In this document: piece after piece, positions 1-51,866 of the stretch | Layout: every line of letters starts with the position of its first letter | Numbering within the stretch: position 1 is the stretch's first letter | Source: Embleya hyalina | Lineage (GTDB): Bacteria > Actinomycetota > Actinomycetes > Streptomycetales > Streptomycetaceae | Assembly (NCBI RefSeq): GCF_003967355.1 | Contig: NZ_BIFH01000020.1 | Coordinates: 124,001 to 188,000 of the forward strand | Direction of reading: 5' to 3' | DNA: 64,000 nucleotides | Position numbers and translations under genes: made by a program | Notes under the pieces: generated by a model | The model's input: the letters and a program-made list of their open reading frames with translations, nothing else | What the model was told of the DNA's origin: nothing | The model's database searches: none

Positions 1-1
1 G

Positions 2-193
2 GGCGCGGTCGTCAAGCGCCCGGTCGTGGTCAACGACCCGACGCTCGGCGAGGTCATCGCGGTCCGCTCGATGGTGTACCTGGCCCTGTCCTACGACCAC
101 CGCCTGGTGGACGGCGCGGACGCGGCCCGCTTCCTGCAGACGGTGAAGACCCGTCTCGAGGAAGGCGCCTTCGAGGGCGACCTCGGCCTGTAG
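2..193 (+). CDS. sucB: Dihydrolipoamide acyltransferase (2-oxoglutarate dehydrogenase E2), C-terminal end
   Basis: Only the last 63 codons are inside the window; the gene starts upstream. The tail holds the E2 catalytic signature [16 protein letters not shown], in which His and Asp of DHR...DG act in acyl transfer to CoA, and ends in a normal E2 C-terminus (FEGDLGL). E2 enzymes form the core of 2-oxoacid dehydrogenase complexes and carry lipoyl groups. The lipoate genes lipB and lipA lie 5 kb downstream on the same strand, a neighbourhood found in streptomycetes, which favours SucB over a pyruvate or branched-chain E2. The exact complex cannot be decided from this fragment. Confidence 0.8.
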
Positions 194-227
194 GCACCCC
201 CTGTAGGCGGCCGGCGACACGCACGTC

Positions 228-265
228 CCGAAGGCGGTTCGGACCCCGGTCCGGGCCGCCTTCGG
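228..265 (+). terminator. Terminator hairpin after sucB
   Basis: Ten-base perfect arms CCGAAGGCGG and CCGCCTTCGG flank an 18-base loop that can itself fold. It starts 35 bases after the sucB stop and ends before the next start. There is no T-run, as is usual for terminators in high-GC actinobacteria. Confidence 0.6.
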
Positions 266-298
266 CATGTTCGGCGCCGGGTGGGCGAGGATGCTCCC

Positions 299-1192
299 AT
301 GCGTATCGCCGTCACCGGCTCGTCCGGCCTCGTGGGTTCCGCTCTCGTCCGCTCGCTCGCCGCCGACGGCCACGAGGTGGTCCGGCTGGTCCGCCGGGCC
401 CCGCGCGGGCCCGACGAGGTGCGCTGGGACCCGCACGGCGGCACGGTGGACACCGCCGCGCTCGGCCCGGTGGACGCGGCGGTGCACCTGGCCGGCGCGG
501 GCATCGGGGATCGGCGCTGGACGGCCGCGTACAAGCGCGAACTCCGGGACAGCCGGGTCCTGGGCACCGCGGCCGTCTCCCGCGCCCTGGCGGCCCTGCG
601 ACCGGCGCCGCGGGTACTGCTGTCCGGTTCCGCGATGGGCTACTACGGCGACACGGGCGAACGCGAGGTGGACGAGTCGTCCCCGCCCGGGACCGGCTTC
701 CTGGCCGACCTGTGCACGGAGTGGGAGGCGGCCACCGCGCCCGCCGTCGAGGCCGGCATCCGGGTCGCCCACCTGCGCACCGGCCTGGTGGTCTCCCGCT
801 CCGGCGGCGCGTGGGGCCGGATGTTCCCGCTGTTCCGGGCCGGTCTCGGCGGTCGGCTCGGCTCGGGCCGGCAGTACTGGAGCTTCATCTCCCTGATCGA
901 CGAGGTGGCCGCGATCCGCCACGTCCTGGACCACCCGACCCTGTCCGGCCCGGTCAACCTGACCACCCCGAACCCGGTCACCAACGCCGAGGCCACCAAG
1001 GCGATGGGCCGGGCCCTGCGCCGACCCACCTTCCTCGCGGTCCCCCCATTCGCCCTGCGCATCGCTCTGGGCGACTTCGCCAAGGAAATCCTCACCGGTC
1101 AGCGCATGATCCCCAGGACCCTCCTCGACTCCGGCTTCACCTTCGAACACCCCACCATCGACACCGCGATCGCCGCCGCCCTCGACGCCTGA
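299..1192 (+). CDS. TIGR01777-type SDR epimerase (SDR39U1/YfcH family)
   Basis: A 297-residue atypical short-chain dehydrogenase. The N-terminus MRIAVTGSSGLVGSALV is the Gly-rich NAD(P)-binding loop. The middle holds SGSAMGYYGDTGEREVDE with the active-site Tyr region typical of this family. The last 50 residues match the family's C-terminal DUF1731 domain (TGQRMIPRTLLDSGF). Length is normal for the family. The substrate is unknown. I chose the ATG at 299 because residue 1 then begins the Rossmann strand directly and a GAGG lies 7-10 bases upstream; an in-frame GTG at 281 would add six residues. It is a single-gene unit between a hairpin and a repeat-filled gap. Confidence 0.85.
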   Translation: MRIAVTGSSGLVGSALVRSLAADGHEVVRLVRRAPRGPDEVRWDPHGGTVDTAALGPVDAAVHLAGAGIGDRRWTAAYKRELRDSRVLGTAAVSRALAALRPAPRVLLSGSAMGYYGDTGEREVDESSPPGTGFLADLCTEWEAATAPAVEAGIRVAHLRTGLVVSRSGGAWGRMFPLFRAGLGGRLGSGRQYWSFISLIDEVAAIRHVLDHPTLSGPVNLTTPNPVTNAEATKAMGRALRRPTFLAVPPFALRIALGDFAKEILTGQRMIPRTLLDSGFTFEHPTIDTAIAAALDA

Positions 1193-1279
1193 GCGCCGCG
1201 TCGGGGGCGGCGGCGCCCGTCGACGGATGGACGCCCTGTGGTTGCCCGCCGGACAACCGGTGTTCTTCGGTGCGCTCCT

Positions 1280-1488
1280 TCGGGCCTTTGGTGGGTATGA
1301 CCCGTAGGCGACGGAACCAGCCGGGCCTTCGAGGGGTATGACCCGTAGGCGATGTACCCGGCCGGGCCTTCGAGGGGTATGACCCGTAGGCGATGTACCC
1401 GGCCGGACGTTCGGGGGGTATGACCCGTAGGCGACGGAACCGGCCGGGCCTTCGGGGGATATGACCTGTAGGCGACGGAACCGACACC
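1280..1488. repeat. Five-unit 41-bp intergenic tandem repeat
   Basis: Five consecutive units begin with TATGACC at 1296, 1337, 1378, 1419 and 1460, an exact 41-base period. Each unit has a fixed first half (TATGACCCGTAGGCGA), a variable 7-base block (CGGAACC in units 1, 4 and 5; TGTACCC in units 2 and 3) and a GCCGGGCCTTCG plus G-run tail. A partial tail precedes unit 1 and unit 5 is cut short. As 41 is not a multiple of 3, the array is not translated as a repeat. It fills the gap between the SDR gene and the oxidoreductase gene and stops about 45 bases before the latter. Units contain a GGGT-nnn-ACCC type dyad on the reverse strand. Function unknown. Confidence 0.9.
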
Positions 1489-1529
1489 GCGGCGTGGGTG
1501 GTCGTGGGCTGGGGGACGGGAGGACGATC

Positions 1530-2783
1530 GTGGTCGACGTGCGCCGTACCGAGGTGATCGTGGTGGGGGCCGGGTTGGCCGGCTTGAGCGCGGCACGGAC
1601 CGTGGCCGCGGCCGGGGTGCCGGTCACCGTGCTGGAAGCGGGCGATCGACCCGGGGGGCGGGTGCGGACGGATCTCGTGGACGGCTTCCGGGTCGACCGC
1701 GGCTTCCAGTCGCTGACCACCTCCTGGCCCCAGGTGCGCAGGCAACTCGACGTCGCCGCACTGGGGTTGCGCGCGTTCCAGCCCGGTGTGCTGCTGTACG
1801 AGGACGGCCGCACGCACCGGATCGGCGACGTGCACCGGGTCCGGGACGCGATCGGCGGGTTGCGCAACGGCAGCGGCACCGATCGCACGCGGTTGGCCGC
1901 GCTGCTCGCCCGGACCGCGTCCGCCCCGGTGGCGCGGGTGTTCGGCGCCGCCGAGACGGCCGCGGCCGATGCGCCGGTGTTGCGCGCGCTGCCGCCCGAG
2001 CTGACCCGGCGGACCCTGCGCCCGCTGCTGGCCGCGCTGTTGCACGATCCCGCGTTGCGCTCGTCCAGCCGGTTCGCCGAGTTGATGCTCCGCTCCTTCC
2101 TGCGCGGCCGGGTGGCGCTGCCCGCCCGGGGCATGGCGGCGGTGCCGACCCAGCTCGCGGCGGCCCTGCCGGCGGGCGTGGTGCGCTACGGCGTACGGGT
2201 GTCGTCCGTCTCGGCCGATCGTGTACTGACCGACCTGGCGGGCGAGATCCGGGCCCGCGCGGTGATCGTGGCCACCGATCCGAGTACGGCGGTGGCGCTG
2301 CTGCCGGGCCTGCGGATGCCCGCGTTCCACCCGGTGACCACGCTGTACCACGTGGCCCGCGGCGCCCCCCGGGCCGACGCGTCGCTGCTCGTGGAGGCCG
2401 ACACCCGCAGCCCGTTCACGCACACGACGGTGCTCAGCCAGGTCGCCCCCACCTACGCGCCGGACCGCCGGGCACTGATCGCGACCACCGTGCTCGGGTA
2501 CGACGGCTCGGAGCCCGCCAAGCTCGAACTACGGGTCCGCGAACGGCTCGCGGTCGTACACGACACGCCCACCGGCACGTGGACACACCTGACCACCTGT
2601 CATATCCCGCGGGCCGTCCCGGTCGTCGAGCCCGGCCACAACTTCCGCCGACCGGTCCGGTTGATCGGCGGCCTGTACGTCTGCGGCGACCATCGCGACT
2701 CCAGCTCCATCCAGGGCGCCCTGGCCTCCGGTCGCAGGGCGGCCCGCTCCGCCCTCGCCGACCTGGGCGCCCTCGCGGCCTGA
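1530..2783 (+). CDS. FAD-dependent oxidoreductase (amine oxidase/phytoene desaturase-like)
   Basis: A 417-residue flavoprotein. The N-terminus EVIVVGAGLAGLSAAR is the FAD dinucleotide-binding motif, followed by the family's EAGDRPGGRVRTD signature, then a substrate domain and a C-terminal second FAD contact (GLYVCGDHRDSSSIQGAL, with a trailing GRRAA helix). This is the architecture of protoporphyrinogen oxidase, amine oxidase and phytoene desaturase relatives; nothing visible fixes the substrate. The GTG at 1530 is chosen because GGGAGGA lies six bases upstream and the FAD motif then begins within ten residues; an upstream ATG at 1461 lies inside the tandem repeat and would add an Arg-rich leader. 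No partner gene is linked closely. Confidence 0.82.
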   Translation: MVDVRRTEVIVVGAGLAGLSAARTVAAAGVPVTVLEAGDRPGGRVRTDLVDGFRVDRGFQSLTTSWPQVRRQLDVAALGLRAFQPGVLLYEDGRTHRIGDVHRVRDAIGGLRNGSGTDRTRLAALLARTASAPVARVFGAAETAAADAPVLRALPPELTRRTLRPLLAALLHDPALRSSSRFAELMLRSFLRGRVALPARGMAAVPTQLAAALPAGVVRYGVRVSSVSADRVLTDLAGEIRARAVIVATDPSTAVALLPGLRMPAFHPVTTLYHVARGAPRADASLLVEADTRSPFTHTTVLSQVAPTYAPDRRALIATTVLGYDGSEPAKLELRVRERLAVVHDTPTGTWTHLTTCHIPRAVPVVEPGHNFRRPVRLIGGLYVCGDHRDSSSIQGALASGRRAARSALADLGALAA

Positions 2784-2796
2784 TCCGCCGCGCCGC

Positions 2797-4167
2797 TCAG
2801 GCCGTGCGGACGAAGCAGCCCGACCGCGCCTCGAACTCGCGTACCGCCGGCACGTCCCGATACGGCGCCAACCGATGGGTGAACTCGCGTACGTAGTCCA
2901 CCGCCCGCGACGACCGCAGCCCCTCGGCCTGTTCGGTCGCCTCCGCCTCCACCCGGCATGCCTGCTCCACCTCGCCCAACTCCAGCAGCGCGGTGGCCAG
3001 GATCGTCTGGCAGAACAACCGGCTGCGCGCGTACTCGCTCCCGCGCAGCCGCAACGAACGCTCGGCGTATTCGCGCGCCTTGTCGTAGTCCTCCAAGTCC
3101 CGGTAGCAGTGCGCGTGGTCGTCGGCCAACTGGGCCTCGTTCATGAACGCGACCCACTCCGGCTCGTCGTCCCCCGCCGCGACGCACTCCAACGCCTGCT
3201 CGGCCCGCAACAGCGCCGCCCCGCACGCCCGCGCGTCGCCGAGCAGCCCGTGCCCGCGCGCCTCGACCGCGTGGAAGAGCGCGCGCACCCGGGGCGTGGC
3301 CACCACCGACGCGCCCTGCTGGGCGACCCGCGCCAGTTGTACCGCCTCACGCCCGTGCCCGAGGTACACCGCCTGGCGACTCATCGTGGACAACACGAAC
3401 CCGCCGAGCGCCCGATCCCCCGACGCCTGGGCCAGCCGCAGCGCCTGGACGAAATAGCGCTGCGCCATCCCGTGCACGCCCACGTCGTACGCCATCCAGC
3501 CGACCAGGCGGGTGAGCGTGGCCGCCGCGCCGAACAGCGCGCTGCCGGTGCGCGAGTCGTAGGTCCCGCGCAGTATCGCGGTCACCTCGGTGTCGAGGTA
3601 GCGCACCAGCGCCTGCCGGCCGTGCCCCCCGCCGAACGAGTTGTCCAGCCGCCGGAACGCCTCGCCGACCGCGCGCACCGCGGCCACGTCGCCCAGGCCC
3701 ACGCGGTCGCCGTCCTGCCGCGCCGGCCGCTCGTCGCCGGCGCCGATCAGCCAGTCCCGACTGGGCACCACCAGCGCCCCGGGCGTGAACGCGGCCTCCA
3801 CCAGGGCGGATCGCTGCGCCGAGTCGGCCTGCCACATGCCGGTGACGATCTCGACCGCCTCGGGCGGACCGGACGCGTACTCCAGCCCGGCATAGTCCGG
3901 CCGGCATCCGGCCATGCCCAGGTCCTCGGCGCCGAGTTTGCGGCCGAGTCGTTGGGTGAAGACCTCCGCGAGCAGTATCGGCACGATCCCGCGCGGATGT
4001 TGGCCGCGCAGCCAGCGTGCCACGGAGGTCTTGTCGTACCGGAGATCGATGCCCTGTTCCGCACCGAGTTGGTCAACGCGTCTGGCCAGACCGGCATGCG
4101 AGAAGCCGGCTTCCTCGACAAGCGCCGCCAGCCGGTGATTGGGGCGCCGCTCGACCCTGGCTGCCAT
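2797..4167 (-). CDS. HTH regulator with TPR-like helical repeats
   Basis: A 456-residue protein. Residues 10-75 form a helix-turn-helix region (SHAGLARRVDQLG ... TSVARWLRGQHPRG) resembling the XRE-like fold used by large streptomycete regulators. The rest is Ala/Leu/Arg-rich helical repeats (LVRYLDTE, AQRYFVQALRLAQASGD, ARAVQLARVAQQ, EYAERSLRLRGSEYA) typical of tetratricopeptide sensor domains. The layout recalls NsdA-type developmental/antibiotic regulators, but I cannot assign an orthologue. The ATG at 4167 follows GGGAGG at 11 bases; upstream codons in frame are not conserved-looking. It ends 14 bases from the convergent oxidoreductase gene. The 410-base upstream gap holds several palindromes, suggesting control of itself or of the divergent gene. 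Confidence 0.75.
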   Translation of the reverse strand: MAARVERRPNHRLAALVEEAGFSHAGLARRVDQLGAEQGIDLRYDKTSVARWLRGQHPRGIVPILLAEVFTQRLGRKLGAEDLGMAGCRPDYAGLEYASGPPEAVEIVTGMWQADSAQRSALVEAAFTPGALVVPSRDWLIGAGDERPARQDGDRVGLGDVAAVRAVGEAFRRLDNSFGGGHGRQALVRYLDTEVTAILRGTYDSRTGSALFGAAATLTRLVGWMAYDVGVHGMAQRYFVQALRLAQASGDRALGGFVLSTMSRQAVYLGHGREAVQLARVAQQGASVVATPRVRALFHAVEARGHGLLGDARACGAALLRAEQALECVAAGDDEPEWVAFMNEAQLADDHAHCYRDLEDYDKAREYAERSLRLRGSEYARSRLFCQTILATALLELGEVEQACRVEAEATEQAEGLRSSRAVDYVREFTHRLAPYRDVPAVREFEARSGCFVRTA

Positions 4168-4225
4168 GGAGATGAACGCCTCCCGCTGGTGCGGTGGTTC
4201 GGGTGTGGGTGGGTGATCGCGCGAG

Positions 4226-4252
4226 AATCTAGCGATTTCTGGAGCGCTACAA
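4226..4252 (-). promoter_or_regulatory. Candidate promoter of the HTH/TPR regulator
   Basis: On the minus strand TTGTAG (4252-4247) and TAGATT (4231-4226) are separated by 15 bases, the best -35/-10 pair in the gap, about 60 bases upstream of the ATG. Confidence 0.35.
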
Positions 4253-4308
4253 CCCGAACGCTCATAACAATGACCCTTTCGAGTTACACCCGAAGGAGCC
4301 GTCGGGAA

Positions 4309-4366
4309 GGGGCGAATTCGCCCCGAGGAAGGCCCGGTTCGGCCAAGTTCGGCAAAACCTGCCGAA
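4309..4366. repeat. Two dyads in the divergent gap
   Basis: A perfect 16-base palindrome GGGGCGAATTCGCCCC (4309-4324) is followed by TTCGGC and GCCGAA arms around a 7-base spacer (4348-4366). They sit between the HTH/TPR regulator and the membrane-anchored protein and could be operators; no regulator has been tied to them. Confidence 0.5.
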
Positions 4367-4450
4367 TCGGCGACACGGATCCGCTGCGCCGTCACCAGCC
4401 TGCCGCCGCTTGCGATGCGCGTAGCGGTGGTGGAACATGCGCGAGGCAGT

Positions 4451-4466
4451 TCACCCGTTGGGGTGA
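4451..4466. repeat. TCACCC-GTTG-GGGTGA inverted repeat
   Basis: Six-base perfect arms with a four-base spacer, 115 bases before the CBM2-like gene. It could be an operator or small hairpin in the leader. Confidence 0.4.
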
Positions 4467-4580
4467 TCGACTTCCGCGCGGCCGACATCCGCGCGGACGC
4501 GCCTCGGGGGCGTCGGGCCACACCGGCCGACGGGTCCGGGAATCGCGAGCCGTCCGTGACCAGGCGAAGGAAACGCACGC

Positions 4581-5285
4581 GTGACCCGGCAATCGGACGA
4601 CACCGCCCGCGGGATCGTGATCCCCCTCGCCGCGGTCGCGATCGTCTGCCTGCTGCTCACCAGCGGGGTCTTCCTGTTCTCCGGCCTCGGCGACTCGGAC
4701 CGGGGCGACCACCCGGTCTCGCTCGACCGGAACCTGCCGTTGCCGGCGCCCGCGTTCCCGCTGCCCGGCACCGCCGCGGCGAGCCCGGGCGCGGGTACGG
4801 CCACCGCCACGGGCCCGCCGACGACCGCGAGCGCGACGCGGTCGGCGACCCGCTCCCCGTCCGCCTCGGCGAGCGCCAACCCCGGGGCGACCGCGACCCG
4901 TTCGAGCACGCCGCCCGTCCCACCCGTCCCGCCGCCGCCCGCCACCACCGGCCCCGCGGACATCTCCGTCGACGCCACCGTGACCGGCTCCGGCTGGGGC
5001 GCCGACGGCACCGTGGTGATCACCAACCGCACCCCGCGCCCGCTGCCCGCCTGGGACCTCACGCTCACCACGTCGGGCCGGCAGAGCGGCTTCACCATGC
5101 TCTACGGCGAGGACATGCGCACCAGCACCGATCGGGGCGTCGCGACCGCCCGCGGCCGGGGGCCGCTGGCGCCCGGGGCGAGCGTGGTGATCGAGTTCGG
5201 CCTGTACGGCCGGGTCGACACGATCGGCTGCACCTTCACCGGCGTGACCTGCCGAGTCCGCGGCCTCGACGCCGGTCGCGGGTGA
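4581..5285 (+). CDS. Membrane-anchored Pro/Ser/Thr-linker protein with CBM2-like domain
   Basis: A 234-residue protein. Residues 11-35 are one transmembrane helix or uncleaved signal ([22 protein letters not shown]). Residues 50-125 are a low-complexity Pro/Ala/Ser/Thr linker. Residues 128-230 look like a type 2 cellulose-binding beta-sandwich ([27 protein letters not shown], later [16 protein letters not shown]), including the Trp residues common in that fold. No catalytic domain is attached, so it probably displays a carbohydrate- or wall-binding module outside the cell. The GTG at 4581 follows AAGGA at 8 bases. Two Cys near the end ([10 protein letters not shown]) may form a disulfide. It is transcribed toward lipB but looks functionally unrelated. 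Confidence 0.65.
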
Positions 5286-5300
5286 CGTTCGACCCCGTCG

Positions 5301-5306
5301 TACGCT
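5301..5306 (+). promoter_or_regulatory. -10 hexamer of a leaderless lipB transcript
   Basis: TACGCT ends 7 bases before the GTG at 5314, so the expected transcription start falls on or next to that start codon. No Shine-Dalgarno sequence is present. Confidence 0.45.
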
Positions 5307-5313
5307 GGTGGAC

Positions 5314-6105
5314 GTGACCAGCTTCTTGCGATTCGTGCACCTGGGCCTCGGCACCGACGCCGTTCCGTACGAGGCCGCCTGGGAGGAACAGCGCCGCGTG
5401 CACGAGCAGGTGGTGAGCGGCGAGGTCGGCGACACGTGTCTGCTTCTGGAACACCCCGCGGTCTACACCGCCGGCCGCCGTACCGACCCCTCCGAGCGCC
5501 CGATGGACGGCACCCCCGTGGTCGACGTCGACCGCGGCGGCAAGATCACCTGGCACGGCCCCGGCCAACTCGTCGGCTACCCGATCGTGCGCCTGCCCGA
5601 GCCGGTCGACGTGGTCGCGCACGTGCGTCGGATGGAGGAGGCGCTGATCCGGGTCTGCGCCGACCTGGGTCTGGAGACCACCCGGATCGAGGGACGCAGC
5701 GGCGTGTGGGTCCTGGGCGACGCGGTGCCGCAACAGGCCCCGACCGGCGGCCTCGACCTGCGCCTGGACAGCCGGCTCACGGCCGCGCCCGACCCGCGCC
5801 TGCACCCCGAGTTCGACCCGCGCCTGGCCGGTCCGGAATACGCGCCCTCCAACGCGGGACAGCGCGGCGACGACCGCAAGCTCGCGGCGATCGGCGTCCG
5901 GGTCTCGCGCAAGGTCACCATGCACGGCTTCGCGATCAACTGCGACGCCGACATGACGTACTACGACCGCATCGTGCCGTGCGGCATCAAGGACGCCGGC
6001 GTCACCTCGCTCAGCCGCGAACTCGGCCGCGAGGTCACCGTCGCCGAGGTCCTGCCGCTGGCCGAGCGGCACCTGGCCGACGTCTTCGCCCGGATCCCGG
6101 CGTGA
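5314..6105 (+). CDS. lipB: Octanoyl-[acyl carrier protein]:protein octanoyltransferase LipB
   Basis: Transfers octanoate from acyl carrier protein to lipoyl domains of E2 subunits and GcvH, the first step of lipoate synthesis. Family motifs are complete: the [18 protein letters not shown] block, the catalytic Lys in [11 protein letters not shown], the HGFAIN block, and the acyl-thioester Cys in [15 protein letters not shown]. Between the GVWVLGD strand and the catalytic Lys there is a roughly 45-residue insert rich in DPRL repeats, as in other streptomycete LipB proteins. The GTG at 5314 suits the -10 position for a leaderless transcript; an in-frame GTG at 5308 is the alternative. lipA follows 209 bases downstream and an E2 gene lies upstream, so enzyme and substrate are co-located. 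Confidence 0.93.
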
Positions 6106-45872: not shown

Positions 45873-51566
<5,694 letters not shown>

Positions 51567-51866
51567 CTCGCATTTCCTCCGCCGGACCGATTCGCCGCGA
51601 CCGCCCGTGCCTCCGGCCGCTTGCCGTCCACAGTCTTTCACTCACGGGGTTGAGAGCAGAGGCGGTCCGGGAGGATGGTGCTTGTCATCCGGAAAGTGCG
51701 GGCTCGAAAGGCACGCTCGGACGGGACATCTGTCGAAATCGTGATCGATGCGTCACTGTTTGGAAGGGGTCCGCCCGATCGTCCGAAACCGATAGGGTGC
51801 GAATCTGCCGGACTGTGGAGCCGGATTCGTCACCGCAGCCGCCGTTCGTCGCAGATGCGGGAGTGT

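Follow-up and report, generated by a model that had tools for sequence, protein, structure and literature searches.

In the genome studied here, the gap upstream of a flavoprotein gene harbors a tandem array in which a 41-bp unit is found five times, the last copy being partial. With a probability of roughly 0.6, as judged from comparison of related sequences, this array would be a tandem amplification of the core of the flavoprotein gene's conserved SigB-type promoter, i.e., the spacer, the GGGTAT -10 box and the first transcribed bases. Slippage or unequal crossing-over may have produced the amplification, in a lineage that comprises this genome (G000, here called the window genome) and another genome of the same genus (G002), after the split from a third (G001). 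The term "window" is used for the whole 64,000-nucleotide stretch of DNA that was analyzed, to which all coordinates refer.

Anatomy and setting of the array

Tandem Repeats Finder places the array on the plus strand at 1281-1483, with a period of 41, 5.0 copies, 89% matches and 0% indels. The 41-bp units start at 1296, 1337, 1378, 1419 and 1460, and 7-base blocks follow the order A-B-B-A-A across the five units; both the starts and the order of the blocks had been given in a preliminary description of this DNA and were reproduced in a register check. The same description referred to an exact 41-bp array of five units, which holds for the spacing, but the units are not identical in sequence and the fifth is incomplete, its likeness to the other units stopping near 1483-1485. 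In the promoter register, which begins three bases earlier, unit 1 spans 1293-1333, unit 2 1334-1374, unit 3 1375-1415, unit 4 1416-1456 and the partial unit 5 1457-1485, all on the plus strand. Units 1 to 4 each begin with a candidate SigB-type -10 box, GGGTAT (1293-1298, 1334-1339, 1375-1380 and 1416-1421, respectively), and unit 5 with GGATAT (1457-1462), which is found at -73 from the start codon of the flavoprotein gene. The units contain GGGTATGACC, instead of which unit 5 has GGATATGACC. A 17-base core, GTATGACCCGTAGGCGA, is found in four exact occurrences and in one with two mismatches, where shuffled sequences lead to an expectation of 0.20 at ≤3 mismatches.

A candidate -35 box of unit 1, GCTCCT, is located at 1274-1279 on the plus strand, separated from the -10 box by a 13-bp spacer; it is a weak match that lacks a T at position 4. 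Because the repeat starts at 1281, i.e., with this candidate -35 box outside, the duplication would have copied the -10 box and the start region without the -35 box. The array itself is real and unlikely to be an assembly artefact, because a diverged copy is present in a separate assembly, that of G002.

The gap that holds the array is bordered upstream by a gene for a TIGR01777-family oxidoreductase/epimerase (299-1192, plus strand), which serves as a synteny anchor, and downstream by the flavoprotein gene (1530-2783, plus strand), the presumed target. Domain profiles assign the latter to PF01593, the flavin-containing amine oxidoreductases; the protein is HpnE-like, yet it scores under the cut-off of that family, and its relatives in the PDB are distant flavin oxidases. 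Its start codon is likely the GTG at 1530, and the likely ribosome-binding site, GGGAGG (1518-1523, plus strand), identified from the sequence, is conserved in an alignment of the genus's four genomes. Relatives of the flavoprotein at E ≤ 1e-60 are found in 287 of the 297 genomes of the bacterial family. A gene for an NsdA-family regulator (NF053720, 484 bits over 2800-4230) resides on the minus strand at 2797-4578, convergent with the flavoprotein gene. Elsewhere in the window, at 45873-51641 on the minus strand, a 1922-aa open frame encodes an apparent hybrid histidine kinase, in which ten HAMP stretches are combined with GAF, HisKA, HATPase and receiver domains, and the DNA of this frame scores as a 276-bp tandem repeat of 9.8 copies at 48393-51094.

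The same gap in related genomes

The orthologous gap was compared in four genomes of the genus, one genome per species, i.e., the window genome, G001, G002 and G003. The number of units differs between these genomes, being five in the window genome, four in G002 (at spacings of 40, 40 and 41) and one in each of G001 and G003; the copy number, for which a check between strains had been proposed, thus varies among related genomes. The repeat unit, a putative promoter, resembles the single conserved element of G001, G003 and genus g2. This single element is found at -73 from the start codon in G001, as is unit 5 of the window, and at -79 in G003. The last unit of G002, which is the counterpart of window unit 5, has GGGCAT instead of the GGATAT found in unit 5, which occupies the ancestral position, and GCGCTCCTTC stands upstream of the array in G002 too.

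The flavoprotein is 97% identical to that of the window genome in G002, 89% in G001 and 84% in G003, and third codon positions of its gene differ from those of the window genome by 6.2% in G002 and 25% in G001. Because G001 and G003 have a single unit and G002, with its 97% identity, has several, the amplification most likely postdates the split from G001 and belongs to the lineage of the window genome and G002. The difference of only 6.2% in third positions between the latter two would therefore mean that the number and length of the arrays changed within a short time.

A wider comparison comprised the upstream regions of 70 loci, 30 from the flavoprotein search and 40 picked for genus spread, from 11 of the 16 genera that have a match. 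Because these loci are related, i.e., not independent, the counts that follow describe conservation rather than probabilities. The TIGR01777-family gene is located upstream of the flavoprotein gene in 67 of the loci. The motif GGGYATnAC was first noticed in the initial 30 loci; among the 40 fetched later, 37 show GGGYAT at a distance of ≤300 bases from the gene, on its upstream side, including two (L075 and L079) that have GGGCAT in the place of the -35 box and GGGCAA as the -10 box. In the interval from -200 to -41, GGGYAT is present in 65 of the 70 loci, the window genome included (35 of the 40 later-fetched loci), whereas shuffled sequences average 4.4 and never exceed 10. The five loci without it are L065 and L066, where GGGCAT is found farther upstream, and L089-L091, which have GGGGAA. 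A strict combination of GNNT and GGGYAT at a spacing of 12-14 bases in the same interval is found in 59 loci (shuffle mean 0.6). With a G..T box 12-14 bases upstream of GGGYAT or of a close variant, in the region from -260 to -21, the count is 66/70 on the forward strand, 4/70 on the reverse strand and 0/30 in coding controls, where the variants GGGCAA, GGGTAA and GGGGAA were admitted after the loci without GGGYAT had been seen. The forward misses are the window genome, G002, G003 and L065, the last of which has its box too far upstream for the region, and when the G..T pairing is counted from the position of the box it is found in 67 loci. Five of the 15 loci of genus g9 have GGGCAA or GGGGAA as the -10 box, i.e., GGG and the A at position 5 are retained. 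The distance from the box to the start codon ranges from ~46 to 245 bases in the 70 loci (L029-L098), even though the SigB-type layout is kept across 11 genera. Tandem copies are found in two of the loci, and the other 68 are without a tandem array.

The search across the window genome itself (12.05 Mb) that had been suggested yielded no further occurrence, i.e., no second match at E ≤ 0.001, and near-matches to the 17-base core elsewhere in this genome are two, both isolated and each with two mismatches. Paired GGGTAT boxes at a distance of 30-40 bases are found three times in the genome besides the array, as compared to once for a reversed control. In a genome contig collection, from which the window genome itself is perhaps excluded, an exact 16-base core is found in nine stretches with one match each, all in distant taxa (one is an Actinomycetota MAG), and these matches are read as chance; plasmid and phage collections gave no match. 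A search for tandem GGGYATGAC over the 297 genomes showed no excess, with matches in 36 genomes as compared to 48 for the reversed control, and 14 of the matches listed represent one similar sequence, which is apparently coding. In other genomes of the family, tandem repeats with GGGCATGAC or GGGTATGAC at distances of ~42, 39 and 45 bp are found at L116, L114 and L117, respectively; they may be due to chance because the reversed-pattern control gives comparable matches.

Promoter-like layout, proposed mechanism and alternatives

In the S. coelicolor promoter rows of PMC8346170 considered here, promoters of SigB homologues have a -35 box GNNT or GTTT and a -10 box of the type GGGTAT, GGGCAT or GGGCAA, in which GGG and the A at position 5 are almost invariant; the spacers that we counted in these rows are 12-15 bases long. 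The conserved single element of the relatives has the same characteristics, i.e., a -10 box that starts with GGG and has A as its fifth base, and a GNNT -35 box at 12-14 bases. The exceptions with respect to the latter are the window genome, G002 and G003, where a GNNT box at this distance is absent from every unit of the two arrays and from the single element of G003. Because the layout is that of the published Streptomyces SigB-type promoters, the most likely reading of the unit is that it comprises the -10 box and the start region of the promoter belonging to the flavoprotein gene itself, and we infer that the element is read by a SigB-like sigma factor. Of 11 matches to the SigBFG family that the genome shows at E ≤ 1e-20, five are sigma factors that score over the cut-off. 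A search for housekeeping promoter and terminator consensus sequences in 1-4000 gave none, where about none are expected.

In units 1-4 the -10 boxes are perfect while the -35 boxes are not. The best -35 candidates are GCTCCT in unit 1, GAACCA in unit 2, GTACCC in units 3 and 4 and GAACCG in unit 5, and the units, taken as whole promoters, have near-background scores. With a matrix built from 24 of the published SigB-type promoters (PMC8346170 rows), units 1 to 5 score 8.4, 7.6, 7.9, 7.9 and 4.7, respectively, as against 15.1 for the lone element in G001. For the 70 regions, the best scores on the reverse strand have a median of 7.4, i.e., units 1-4 are found at about this level and unit 5 below it. 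The matrix discriminates poorly, giving scores of at least 8 in 68/70 regions on the forward strand, 29/70 on the reverse strand and 25% of shuffled regions.

The variation among the units is unevenly distributed. In units 1-4, a 19-base core, GGGTATGACCCGTAGGCGA, has 0/19 variable columns as compared to 7/22 in the rest (Fisher p 0.0098). The difference is weaker if the core is taken as 21 bases (p 0.045), and when the three inner units of G002 are added the values are 0.038 and 0.085 for the 19- and 21-base cores, respectively; the last unit of each array is omitted from all of these comparisons. The low variation hints at selection on the core, although the same pattern could arise through gene conversion or recent duplication.

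On the basis of these data, the following scenario may be outlined. Slippage or unequal crossing-over would have multiplied the promoter core in the lineage of the window genome and G002, and a SigB-type polymerase would start transcription at the conserved element. More tentatively, unit 1, the only one still preceded by the upstream sequence of the original element, may be the main start, in which case the leader would be extended from ~60 to ~225 bases. Equally tentatively, the inner units may act as extra -10 boxes, i.e., as weak starts or as sites of polymerase binding, such that the copy number could tune expression. The footprint of a polymerase is ~60 bases, which is more than the 41-base period, so adjacent units could not be occupied simultaneously. 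A further possibility, which we regard as rather doubtful, is that the units form a series of expandable -10 boxes without -35 boxes. Here, unit 1 would be the only near-complete promoter and the inner units would recruit or hold the SigB-type polymerase, with the start region of the previous unit as a makeshift -35 box; the copy number would set the level, the leader length or the stress response, and would flip readily between strains.

The amplified promoter core has to be weighed against explanations in which the repeat has another role or none. The array could be a multi-site operator, in which GGGYATnAC is the site of a transcription factor for the flavoprotein gene, multiplied for cooperativity. 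The conservation of the element in the 70 loci would fit this explanation too, and the arrays mostly keep the box but not the -35 box, as expected if the box matters alone. However, the G..T box 12-14 bases upstream is co-conserved in nearly all loci without an array, which fits a sigma factor, and we consider an operator unlikely. A dimeric operator on the palindrome GGGTATGACCC is disfavored because this inverted repeat is poorly conserved, being retained, as such or in the form GGGCATGnCCC, in just 11 of the 70 loci. Spacings of 40-41 bases correspond to 3.8-3.9 helical turns, a figure that gives no clear indication in either direction as to an operator. From the preliminary description of a regulatory repeat upstream of the flavoprotein gene, a probable cis-regulatory role is supported, but the unit resembles the core of a deeply conserved promoter-like element, present without a tandem array in the other 68 of the 70 loci, more than a free-standing operator or small RNA. 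A serious rival, even if of similarly low probability, is that the array is a neutral product of slippage, the extra copies in the leader or spacer being inert and one unit, or a start elsewhere, being sufficient. Tandem copies in only two of the 70 loci, inner units without a -35 box, the altered box of unit 5 and the differences in number and length of the arrays between species that differ by 6.2% in third codon positions are all consistent with neutrality. The core columns, on the other hand, vary less than the linkers and the cores are mostly intact in both genomes, a pattern that, as noted above, is also compatible with gene conversion or a recent duplication.

The remaining explanations are much less probable. 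That the repeats encode small RNAs, as the preliminary description had considered, or a structured leader is very unlikely: the minus strand of 1190-1540 does fold slightly better than shuffled sequences (z -1.72; 2/100 as good), but the plus strand does not (90/100 fold as well), the only Rfam match in 1-6000 is far under the cut-off (22.3 as compared to 60 bits), and what is conserved across the family are promoter-like boxes. The probability that the array is a coding repeat on the minus strand is close to negligible. No minus frame is interrupted within the array of the window, and two of three are open in G002, but open frames are common in DNA so rich in G+C, the 41-bp period is not divisible by three, the periods in G002 are 40, 40 and 41 with a stop in one minus frame, and G001 and G003 hold one copy. 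The initial assessment that the array is not coding is thus probably right, and the units are arranged head-to-tail without spacers, in agreement with the statement that it is not a CRISPR.

Relation to known systems

If the array is the amplified core of a promoter, an anonymous repeat becomes a testable regulatory change, for which the single-copy relatives are natural controls for the four- and five-unit arrays. The comparison also exposes a conserved element upstream of an uncharacterized flavoprotein gene present in nearly the entire family (287/297 genomes), and the layout of this element points to stress-type sigma factors. Promoter tandem repeats would, in addition, extend to a large-genome actinobacterium. 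In the titles and abstract openings of the papers listed for tandemly repeated Streptomyces promoters, nothing was found on this locus, and the promoter rows of PMC8346170 that were examined contain no ortholog of the flavoprotein gene.

In its layout the element is similar to these S. coelicolor promoters of SigB homologues, i.e., with a -35 box GNNT or GTTT, a spacer of 12-15 bases and a -10 box of the GGGTAT, GGGCAT or GGGCAA type, but the rows considered from PMC8346170 are single promoters, unlike the array. With respect to the repetition, the sections of PMC12817950 considered here describe promoter tandem repeats in M. tuberculosis, with units of 58 bp at lpdA and 54-56 bp at cysG and another repeat at dop, the copy number of which varies between strains and has been interpreted as phase variation. 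The array described here differs from these repeats in having a 41-bp unit that is SigB-type by layout, with inner copies that lack a -35 box, and the variation in copy number is confined here to comparisons between species, each represented by one genome, such that the likeness is one of anatomy (cf. PMC12817950). In both cases, however, a unit of tens of bases is found directly upstream of a gene in an actinobacterium and its copy number varies among close relatives (PMC12817950). By this analogy, the array appears to be one more instance of a known phenomenon, i.e., an expandable promoter repeat, of which the M. tuberculosis promoter tandem repeat would be the closest kind.
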